DNA of 64,000 nucleotides, taken from assembly GCF_016918935.1 (NCBI RefSeq), contig NZ_JAFFOB010000030.1, positions 1 through 64,000 on the forward strand, read 5' to 3'. A program made the position numbers and the translations under genes. Origin of the DNA: Roseitranquillus sediminis (GTDB lineage Bacteria; Pseudomonadota; Alphaproteobacteria; Rhodobacterales; Rhodobacteraceae). Below are positions 9,110 to 46,594 of this stretch, piece after piece (the first letter of the stretch is position 1; every line of letters begins with the position of its first letter). Below the pieces are notes generated by a model. That model was not told the DNA's origin, made no database searches, and was given only the letters and a program-made list of their open reading frames with translations.

Positions 9110-9298
9110 ATGGCCAAGACGATCGTCGTCAAGCAGGTGGGCTCGCCCATCCGCCGCCCCGCCGTGCAGCGCCAGACGCTGATCGGCTTGGGCTTGAACA
9201 AGATGCATCGCACGCGCGAGCTCGAGGACACGCCATCCGTTCGCGGCATGGTCAACTCGATCCCGCACCTGGTGCAGATCATCGAAGAGCGGGGCTGA
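9110..9298 (+). CDS. rpmD: 50S ribosomal protein L30
   Basis: 62-residue L30, a small 50S protein often absent in other bacteria but regular in alphaproteobacteria. [28 protein letters not shown] is interpreted as the family core, followed by the [17 protein letters not shown] end. ATG 9110 follows TAAGGAGACACGCG. A 127-base gap with a repeated TTGCAA element separates it from rplO. Confidence 0.95.
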
Positions 9299-9322
9299 CC
9301 GGCCCCGCACTCCTACAAGTTC

Positions 9323-9361
9323 TTGCAAATCCGGTCTTGGAAACTTGCAGGAAGTTGAAAG
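9323..9361 (+). promoter_or_regulatory. TTGCAA-type element, copy 1 (rpmD-rplO gap)
   Basis: TTGCAA at 9323, cTTGCAG at 9345 and TTGAAA at 9355 (spacing 22 and 10) recur with the same spacing on the minus strand at 45084-45125. Over 42 aligned bases without gaps (9320-9361) 31 are identical. It is the only structured feature in the rpmD-rplO gap. It could be a regulator site, or a dispersed intergenic repeat. Confidence 0.6.
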
Positions 9362-9425
9362 TTCACGCCGAGGTCGGCCGCTTCCCGTCGCTTTGGGGGC
9401 CGCATCCGGCAAGAGGAGAAGCGAC

Positions 9426-9887
9426 ATGAAGCTGAACGAACTGAGCGATAATCCGGGCGCGACAAAGCGCAAGAAGCGCGTCGGTCGCGGTCCCGGCTCG
9501 GGCCTCGGCAAGACTGCCGGCCGCGGGATCAAGGGTCAGAAGTCCCGCTCGGGTGTCTCGATCAATGGTTATGAGGGCGGCCAGATGCCGCTCTACCAGC
9601 GGCTGCCGAAGCGCGGCTTCAACAAGCCGAACCGCAAGCGCTATGCTGTGGTCAATCTTGGGATGATCCAGAAGTTCATCGACGCTGGCAAGCTTGGCGA
9701 GGTCATCACCGAGAACGAGCTCGTCGACAGCGGCCTGGTCCGGCGCAAGCTCGACGGTGTGCGGGTGCTGGGCGCGGGCGAGCTGTCGGCCAAGGTCGAG
9801 ATGACCGTGACCGGGGCGTCGCGGTCCGCGATCGAGGCGGTCGAGAAGGCCGGCGGCTCGCTCACCGTCACGTCGGCGGCCGAATAA
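9426..9887 (+). CDS. rplO: 50S ribosomal protein L15
   Basis: 153-residue L15, a late 50S assembly protein. The N-terminal glycine/basic region [19 protein letters not shown] and [16 protein letters not shown] are diagnostic. ATG 9426 follows CAAGAGGAGAAGCGAC. A 228-base gap containing a terminator-like hairpin separates it from secY. Confidence 0.97.
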
Positions 9888-44714: not shown

Positions 44715-44921
44715 TCAGACGGCCGAAAGGTTCGCCGCCGACTCGCGGCCCTGGCGGTCGCGCTCGAGGTCGTAGGTGACCTTCTGGCCGTCTTCCAGCG
44801 AGGAGAGGCCGGCGCGCTCGAGCGCGGAGATGTGCACGAACACGTCGCGCGAGCCGCCCTCGGGCTGGATGAAGCCGTAGCCTTTGGTGGTGTTGAACCA
44901 CTTCACGGTACCATTTGCCAT
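44715..44921 (-). CDS. Cold-shock protein, copy 2
   Basis: 68-residue CspA-family protein with RNP1 KGYGFIQPE and RNP2 VFVHISALE, about two-thirds identical to copy 1 at 38871. ATG 44921 follows an AAAGGGATACAAAATC leader. A long upstream region (to 45160) holds a candidate promoter and the TTGCAA-type element. Confidence 0.95.
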   Translation of the reverse strand: MANGTVKWFNTTKGYGFIQPEGGSRDVFVHISALERAGLSSLEDGQKVTYDLERDRQGRESAANLSAV

Positions 44922-45071: not shown

Positions 45072-45083
45072 GGGGGAACCGGG

Positions 45084-45125
45084 TTCTTGCAACTTCGTGC
45101 AAGTCCACAGGCCCGGTCTTGCAAA
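45084..45125 (-). promoter_or_regulatory. TTGCAA-type element, copy 2 (upstream of cold-shock gene)
   Basis: On the minus strand TTGCAA (45124-45119), ACTTGCA and GTTGCAA (45092-45087) have the same 22- and 10-base spacing as the copy at 9320-9361; 31 of 42 bases agree. On the plus strand CTTGCA-N6-TGCAAG (45086-45103) is a perfect inverted repeat. One more TTGCAAG lies further upstream at 45150. Confidence 0.6.
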
Positions 45126-45224
45126 TACTTCAACGACATCGGCGGCATCTTGCAAGAACAGGTATGCACGTACATGGCGCGCCTCGCGGCATCACCGTGC
45201 ATCGTCGCACAGCCTCCGCGATTG

Positions 45225-45385
45225 GCGGGCGGCGCGACGCGGGTCCACTTCCACTGGCCGGCGAGGACCGGCACTGGCGGGAGATCGGACCGATGGCACC
45301 GACGCAACGCAACAGGCACGGGTTCGTGGAGCGGCCCGAGGCGTGGCCGTATTCGTCGGTCCACGGGGGCGATGCGCGAGGGTCG
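45225..45385 (+). pseudogene. Remnant of a RAYT (REP-associated tyrosine transposase)
   Basis: The frame at 45310-45363 reads NRHGFVERPEAWPYSSVH, closely resembling the conserved C-terminal part of RAYT/Y1 transposases (NPVxHGLVxxPxDWPxSSxH). Upstream frames contain HWREIG and other garbled pieces. No full open frame remains. A REP-like inverted pair follows at 45394-45486. Confidence 0.65.
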
Positions 45386-45393
45386 GTTCGAGC

Positions 45394-45486
45394 CGTAGGG
45401 CGGGGTTCACCCCGCTACCGCGCACCATCGTGGTCCGGGACGCGCGGGTGGAGGCGGAGGAATGGCGGGGTAAACGCCGCCCTACG
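45394..45486. repeat. REP-like inverted pair
   Basis: The 22 bases at 45394-45415 (core GTAGGGCGGGGTTCACCCC) and the reverse complement of 45465-45486 agree at 20 of 22 positions, 49 bases apart. Such GTAGGG(C/T)GG palindromes flank RAYT genes in many proteobacteria. Each arm also has internal dyad symmetry (GCGGGGT/ACCCCGC). Confidence 0.7.
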
Positions 45487-45491
45487 CCTTG

Positions 45492-46594
45492 CTACGACTT
45501 ACTTGCATGGTGCATGCACGCAGCCGCGAAGTCCTCACCAAAGGCCGTAATTTGATAGCTGCAATTGAACGAAGTCTGCGCGAAGGAAATGCTGAGCTCC
45601 GGATCTCCTTGCCTTGAATTCAGGTATTCCCTGATGCTGCCTACCCACTTGTGCAAATCGACCGCAAGCTGAATTGCGATCTTGTTTACTTCATCTCCTT
45701 CGAGCTTAAGGAAATCACTTGCGTCGATGCTGCCGTAACTGTAATCAAGCCGATCCACTAAATCTCTATAGGCCGGAGAAAATTTCCAAGACTCGGCGCG
45801 ATCGCGGAATCCTGGTGGTCCTCCTGAAAACCGGGATTGAATAAGGTCAAGGCGCGTCAGGTTCAGGCGAATCTGCCGAAGCTTTTCTCCTACGTCTTTC
45901 TCGAGTGCCTCCCAAACTTCACGCAGCCTCCCGAATTCTCGCGTGGCAAAGTCCTTTCTATCCTCTCTCAGTCGCTTGTTCTCTTGGTCGATGCTATCTT
46001 TCTCTGATGCGAGGCGGGACTTCTCCTCTCCATCATCAAGAGCTGCATCAATCTTCTTCTGTATTTCGAAACTTGCCTGATAGAGCTCTTTTTCTGTCGC
46101 TGCCTTGAACTCGCGCACAGCCTTGCTGATGCGCTCAGCTTGAACAATGATTTCTAGCACTCTGGCATCAATGGGGGCGAGACCGCGAAGCACATCGCTA
46201 TAGATATTCGTTCGTTCATCAGAGAAATCTGGATCCATCGACGAGGCTAGGAGGTGCGCCCACATCTCGGAAAGATGCTTGTCTTCGGCTGTGGATGCTC
46301 CATTGAAAATCGCATAAAGCTCGCCGTTGGGCAGCTGTCTCGCATCGTTTAAGGGTATTCGGCGCTCCTCAAGGAACTTCGCGGTCTTTTCCAAGCAACC
46401 GACTAGATTGCGTGTTCGCCACTCCCGTAGCGGGTCGCCAACAAGACCACCCCACAAGTCAGAAGCGCTTCTCCGAACACCGCCAGACAGCCCTGCTGTC
46501 GCCGCGTGGAGAACGGTAAGGGCGCTGGGAGTTAAGCTGCCGAGTACGGTTGGGGAGGCGGTGCTTTCGTCGTCTCGAGCGTCCGAGCGAGGGG

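Follow-up and report, generated by a model that had tools for sequence, protein, structure and literature searches.

A dispersed element of two TTGCA-box palindromes in the genome of Roseitranquillus sediminis, perhaps kept as paired protein-binding sites

Background

The Rickettsia palindromic elements (RPEs) are small palindromic elements dispersed in the genome of an alphaproteobacterial host, some of them lying in frame inside protein genes (excerpts of PMC10969869). In REPINs, or REP doublets, what is dispersed is a pair of palindromic units at a preferred spacing, with a less conserved spacer between them (excerpts of PMC3116915). Two types of regulator sites are also to be considered: the Lrp-type regions, which are clusters of imperfect dyads whose centres lie two or three helical turns apart on the same face (excerpts of PMC2995911), and the ScfR-type sites (PccR, RamB, PrpR), which are paired boxes, TTTGCAAA-type in PrpR, lying 1 bp apart for PrpR and 18 bp apart for RamB (excerpts of PMC6765138 and PMC10370305).

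We report here on a sequence of Roseitranquillus sediminis which recalls each of these systems in part. It was noticed in a stretch of 64,000 nucleotides (contig NZ_JAFFOB010000030.1, positions 1 to 64,000), called the window in what follows.

Results

A family of 16 copies

The alignment of positions 9320-9361 (plus strand) with positions 45086-45127 (minus strand) is ungapped and has 31 identical bases out of 42. The initial annotation had given this gap-free match correctly, except that it placed the minus-strand copy at 45084-45125, two bases off, a register in which 11 of 42 bases are identical. Taken alone, a similarity of 31/42 is commonplace within the window, where 48 clustered pairs reach it (27 direct and 21 inverted, the noted pair counted), as one would expect if the resemblance were due to chance. 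Chance is nevertheless refuted, and we give it practically no credit: the pattern CTTGCANGAAGTTGNAAG, taken from the two window copies and searched with at most 2 mismatches, has 19 matches in the 3.73 Mb genome versus 1 for the reversed control. These 19 matches correspond to 16 elements: besides the two window copies there are 14 others, and all have a second unit at 32 bp. It is this genome-wide test, and not the identity found within the window, which shows that the pair is a real family. Hence the two window stretches are members of a dispersed family of 16 copies in their own genome. The initial annotation had hesitated between an undescribed operator and a dispersed repeat; both halves are partly borne out, as the element is a dispersed repeat and its conservation, we infer, is that of a protein site.

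A sequence-only profile model was built from the 16 aligned copies. In their own genome the 16 elements score 43-59 bits with this model and, besides weaker re-matches of the same places, the next unrelated place reaches 12.6 bits over a fragment of 25 bases. The E-values of the model are circular for the copies from which it was built; what supports the family without circularity is the two-copy pattern, together with the second unit which the further copies have at 32 bp. The first pass scored 150 of 422 candidates, and weaker copies may have been missed. The total length of the contigs devoid of any copy is not unusual (P 0.11), which gives no sign of a clustering of the copies on a part of the genome.

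Architecture of the element

The core of the element is 52 bp long and consists of a first unit (20 bp), a spacer (12 bp) and a second unit (20 bp). The consensus of the unit, TCTTGCAnGAAnTTGCAAGA, is an imperfect 20-bp palindrome, and the two units are 32 bp apart from centre to centre, which is about three helical turns. The four TTGCA boxes start at 0, 10, 32 and 42 (spacing 10-22-10); three such cores had been described at first, with the right spacings of 22 and 10 but one box too few. There is no indel in the aligned cores of the 16 copies, and no solitary unit was found in the genome at 2 mismatches or fewer. The spacer is poorly conserved and often begins with CCGG. The G+C content of the element cores is 46%, versus 67% for the window. 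Both window copies (Table 1) sit between genes, in agreement with the non-coding position first given for them.

Table 1. Positions in the window of the two element copies, of their parts and of the adjoining genes; the genes which we take to be rpmD, rplO and a cold-shock gene were named from their sequence.
Feature	Position	Strand	Remark
rpmD	9110..9298	+	stop 12 bp before element core
Element copy, rpmD-rplO gap (core)	9311..9362	+	alignment columns 6-57; profile match 9309-9366, 46.2 bits
Unit 1 of rpmD-rplO copy	9311..9330	+	imperfect 20-bp palindrome
Spacer of rpmD-rplO copy (12 bp)	9331..9342	+	poorly conserved except CCGG
Unit 2 of rpmD-rplO copy	9343..9362	+	
rplO	9426..9887	+	start 63 bp past element core
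Cold-shock domain gene	44715..44921	-	start 163 bp past element core
Element copy upstream of cold-shock gene (core)	45085..45136	-	profile match 45080-45139, 55.2 bits
Unit 2 of cold-shock copy	45085..45104	-	
Spacer of cold-shock copy (12 bp)	45105..45116	-	
Unit 1 of cold-shock copy	45117..45136	-	left box is a GTTGAA variant
Extra CTTGCAAG box at cold-shock copy	45149..45156	-	31 bp before right box of unit 1

The extra CTTGCAAG box at the cold-shock copy is a possible degenerate third unit. An extra partial box is also seen beside the element in two other loci (L020 and L026). Near the cold-shock copy there is moreover an inverted repeat of the GTAGGGCGGGGTTCACCCCGC type (45382-45415 and 45465-45498), with 34-nt arms which are 79% complementary.

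Constraint on the half-sites

We read each half-site from its outer end as tcTTGCAnG, with the positions counted from 0. Of the ten half-site positions, two (T3 and A6) are invariant, being present in all of the 64 half-sites; T2 is present in 58, C5 in 53, G4 in 50 and A7 in 44. In order to reduce the discovery bias, we counted again, taking in each element only the unit with the poorer fit to the search pattern: T3 and A6 are still found in 32 of 32 half-sites, T2 in 26 and G4, C5 and A7 in 22 each. Since both units are within 2 mismatches of the pattern in 3 of the 16 elements, this control is clean for 13 of them. Over the 120 pairs of copies, identity is 100% for the T3 and A6 columns, 67% for the other unit columns and 44% for the spacer. 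The best pair of copies is 83% identical and the median is 66%; recent copying would be expected to leave near-identical pairs, so there is no sign of it. In three half-sites (in L012, L015 and L001) we observed the same double change from GC to CA (TTCAAC for TTGCAn), with T3 and A6 kept.

The units are able to pair with themselves, and eight of the 16 copies lie just ahead of a start codon in our reading of the open reading frames, as an RNA stem-loop (a leader or a processing element) might. The hairpins of the units do not behave in this way: 74.6% of the cells are paired versus 75.3% after shuffling, pairs changed on both sides number 2 versus 2.6, and there is no covariation, pairs being broken without compensation. 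This pairing count covered the hairpins of the two single units; RNAalifold, run on the aligned copies, predicted zero pairs and hence no consensus fold. When the 16 loci were compared with Rfam at gathering scores, only a serC leader and one tRNA were matched, neither of them at an element. As the copies also have, in our reading, mixed orientations with respect to the genes, we consider an RNA stem-loop very improbable. The serC leader RNA (RF00517) lies ahead of serC (L021, 287-338, plus strand), and the same locus has a copy of the element in its serC-serA gap.

The invariance of T3 and A6, the poor conservation of the spacer and the lack of covariation together agree with a protein site acting at the DNA level, of the dimer-of-dimers type, better than with a hairpin in the RNA or with a newly spreading repeat. 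This constraint is deduced from the 16 copies of one genome.

Distribution in other genomes

With the profile model, no full copy was found in any of three partly overlapping sets: 40 relatives, 294 genomes which each represent a further genus of the family, and 384 further genomes of the class. The filters were stricter in these scans, and under them the copies of the own genome were still detected (16/16 in the scan of the family, 14/16 in that of the class). The relatives contain partial matches, at 21.8 bits in one genome (G052) and 20.6 bits in another (G612). The gene content of the own genome, and a serA match of 79% to Pseudorhodobacter turbinis, point to the Rhodobacteraceae. The genome-wide search advised by the initial annotation has thus given 14 further copies and no conserved copy in relatives; a lack of further copies and a lack of conservation had both been named beforehand as arguments against the element, and we found the second but not the first.

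Two templates, each fitting 5 of the 16 copies, were searched for elsewhere: the exact one of 20 bases is present in six stretches of genome contigs (three Anaerococcus records, a Clostridia MAG, a Treponema MAG and one Lacrimispora), and the looser one of 18 bases in 54 viral contigs. Applied to all 60 of these loci, the profile model gave four matches at E=1 or lower, of which the Treponema MAG has two (24.7 and 23.6 bits), the other two being weaker. The Treponema matches have 29-30% G+C and lie in a run of TTGCAAG repeats. We take these outside matches to be, in all likelihood, due to chance in low-complexity sequence. Searching plasmids with the serC-serA copy as the only query gave no match. 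In the CC-licensed full-text literature, as far as titles and the beginnings of abstracts tell, there is no description of the element.

The loci of relatives contain paired 20-bp palindromes with other arms (L062, L088, L096, L110, L134, L137, L145, L078, L263, L264 and L280). Their centres are 23-24 bp apart in ten pairs, versus one pair in one shuffle of the 127 relatives' loci, while one genome (G065) has pairs at 32-33 bp in three places (L145, L078 and L264). The arms differ between genomes and within a genome. In 464 kb of the own genome, near-perfect palindrome pairs are no commoner than after shuffling (7 versus 11.7). The pairs of the relatives are possibly a family-wide class of paired palindromes.

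Positions of the copies in the genome

The positions given here come from our reading of the open reading frames and from family scans. Besides the two window copies, there is a copy in the serC-serA gap, about 15 bp ahead of serA, and others are found ahead of a LivF-like ATP-binding gene, of lpd, of arfB, of a gene with a weak phd-family match and, after cobT, of an M24 peptidase gene. One is flanked by a carboxyltransferase-like and a macro-domain gene, and another by a histidine kinase gene and a divergent gene whose NF007413 match is below the cutoff. Three are located at gene ends: for a cytochrome c gene this is the stop codon, and for dxs and a HinT-like gene the 3' end. The copy of the HinT-like gene faces a 449-codon open reading frame without family match, on which the convergence at this copy depends. 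One copy is near the start of contig C16, and the last two are intragenic, in glyS and valS.

In our reading, eight of the 16 copies have an end which is at most about 35 nt away from a start codon. By itself this says little, since 52 bp placed in a short gap must be near a start codon. The orientation relative to the adjoining gene is mixed. The neighbouring genes show no clear common pathway, and among them no transcription-factor gene was seen beside a copy, besides the gene with the weak phd-family match (phd-type antitoxins bind DNA). The link with genes of growth and translation which the window copies had suggested does not extend to the family: other neighbours are cytochrome c genes, dxs, the histidine kinase gene and the macro-domain gene, and there are the intragenic and gene-end copies.

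Evidence for insertion

In glyS, the element is a 15-residue in-frame addition. The own protein reads SVR-KSCKNLQEGVESHASSSKNAPITH-FVTVAN, with 33 residues between the anchors, where 23 parsed relatives have 17 or 18, and it is 15 residues longer here than 28 of the 29 relatives examined. The segment is missing in all 29 relatives' loci (29 were fetched of the 58 relatives with a match), including six which were read by eye, and the best GlyS chain of known structure has a gap at this place. In valS, the copy lies in a long loop of 37 residues, versus 24-34 in the 23 relatives which could be parsed (from 29 loci of the 39 relatives with a match), and at this loop the best ValRS chain of known structure is shorter. 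The evidence for an insertion is weaker here, because the length of the loop varies among relatives. The strand and frame in which the element is translated are the same for glyS and valS (S..NLQ), but at least six of the 16 copies have a stop in this frame.

The serC-serA gap measures 78 bp, versus 50-199 bp in 21 of 29 relatives (five mis-parsed and three unparsed ones being excluded), and the rpmD-rplO gap 127 bp, versus 99-272 bp in the ten parsed of 40 fetched relatives. Both gaps are within the range of the relatives, so that an insertion is not established at these two places; in the parsed relatives, other sequence fills the place of the element. Palindromes of the GTAGGGTGGGC type are present in the serC-serA gaps of some relatives. 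No target duplication was seen by eye, in flanks which carry little signal and with insertion ends which are not base-exact. Judging from the glyS addition, the valS loop, the operon gaps and the gene ends, the element seems to have moved.

The copies could be those of a miniature mobile element of a selfish kind (similar to RPEs, MITEs or REPINs), the conserved boxes serving its mobilising enzyme and the copies having no role for the host. The in-frame segment of glyS, the long loop of valS, the scattering over gene gaps and gene ends, the fixed two-unit architecture without solitary units at 2 mismatches or fewer and the lack of a full copy in the scanned relatives are all in favour of it. 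However, no pair of copies exceeds 83% identity, target duplications were not seen by eye, and the RAYT-type domain Y1_Tnp (PF01797) has 0 matches in the genome, 5 of 14 control genomes being positive. The weak point of a mobilising enzyme is the invariance of T3 and A6 while the rest has diverged, and we regard a purely selfish element as rather unlikely, albeit a serious candidate.

The site-like conservation with its poorly conserved spacer and the nearness of half of the copies to start codons (in our reading) would also suit a set of ordinary operators for a single transcription factor, each site having arisen separately. Such a set would hardly include a site within the extra segment of glyS and others at 3' ends; no solitary site at 2 mismatches or fewer, no full site in relatives and no common pathway were seen either. 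We consider this origin improbable.

Discussion

The reading we favour, with about as much doubt as confidence, is that of an old, lineage-restricted dispersed element of about 52 bp, the copies of which are kept as paired protein-binding sites. The element would have spread by insertion long ago and would later have been retained as paired sites for a candidate DNA-binding protein; we infer both of these steps. The two dyads three helical turns apart, with invariant positions placed symmetrically, would suit two dimers which cooperate on the same DNA face. The candidate protein might bind in the manner of Lrp or of a LysR-type tetramer, the sites of LysR tetramers having a similar geometry. 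Bound beside start codons or in operon gaps, it could modulate transcription or the local architecture of the DNA. The copies of glyS and valS and those at 3' ends speak against paired binding sites, as they are unlike promoter operators.

A further possibility, which we put forward tentatively and hold to be unlikely, is the domestication of a mobile palindromic element: it would have scattered ready-made double operators through one lineage, into glyS and valS too, and the 16 copies would now be selected for binding a chromosomal protein.

The usual view of small dispersed repeats is that they are decaying selfish DNA. Here the median identity between copies is as low as 66%, yet every half-site has the same two letters and the spacing is the same, even in the copies which lie within two genes for aminoacyl-tRNA synthetases. 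Should the copies bind a protein, this would be a dispersed element which provides binding sites ready for use, and a direct search for the binder is possible.

Among the known systems, the likeness to the sites of PccR/ScfR regulators pointed out by the initial annotation is unsupported. The boxes are spaced 10-22-10 in the present element, versus 1 bp for PrpR and 18 bp for RamB, and TTTGCAAA is not present in the window. The genome has one ScfR match, whose 3.35-kb stretch contains no TTGCAA. We rejected an ScfR/PccR operator on the spacing and on this locus.

The Lrp/AsnC-type regions, as far as the excerpts of PMC2995911 describe them, resemble the present element by their imperfect dyads and three-turn geometry, and it is the geometry alone which matches: those control regions have identified regulators, whereas no protein or pathway is tied to the present element. 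The excerpts of PMC5343134, on regulons of Proteobacteria, do not mention Lrp and hence offer no motif for comparison.

With REPINs, the present element shares a dispersal unit made of two palindromic units around a less conserved spacer. It differs from them in that REPINs have compensatory hairpins and RAYT genes, neither of which was found here; a REPIN/RAYT reading was rejected for want of a Y1_Tnp match and of hairpin covariation.

The RPEs differ from the present element in being about 150 bp long with an open reading frame for a conserved peptide, a feature not found here, where the element is a 52-bp double dyad with invariant T and A. What the two have in common is that they are small dispersed palindromic elements of an alphaproteobacterial host inserted in frame into coding genes, which is seen here in glyS and, less firmly, in valS.
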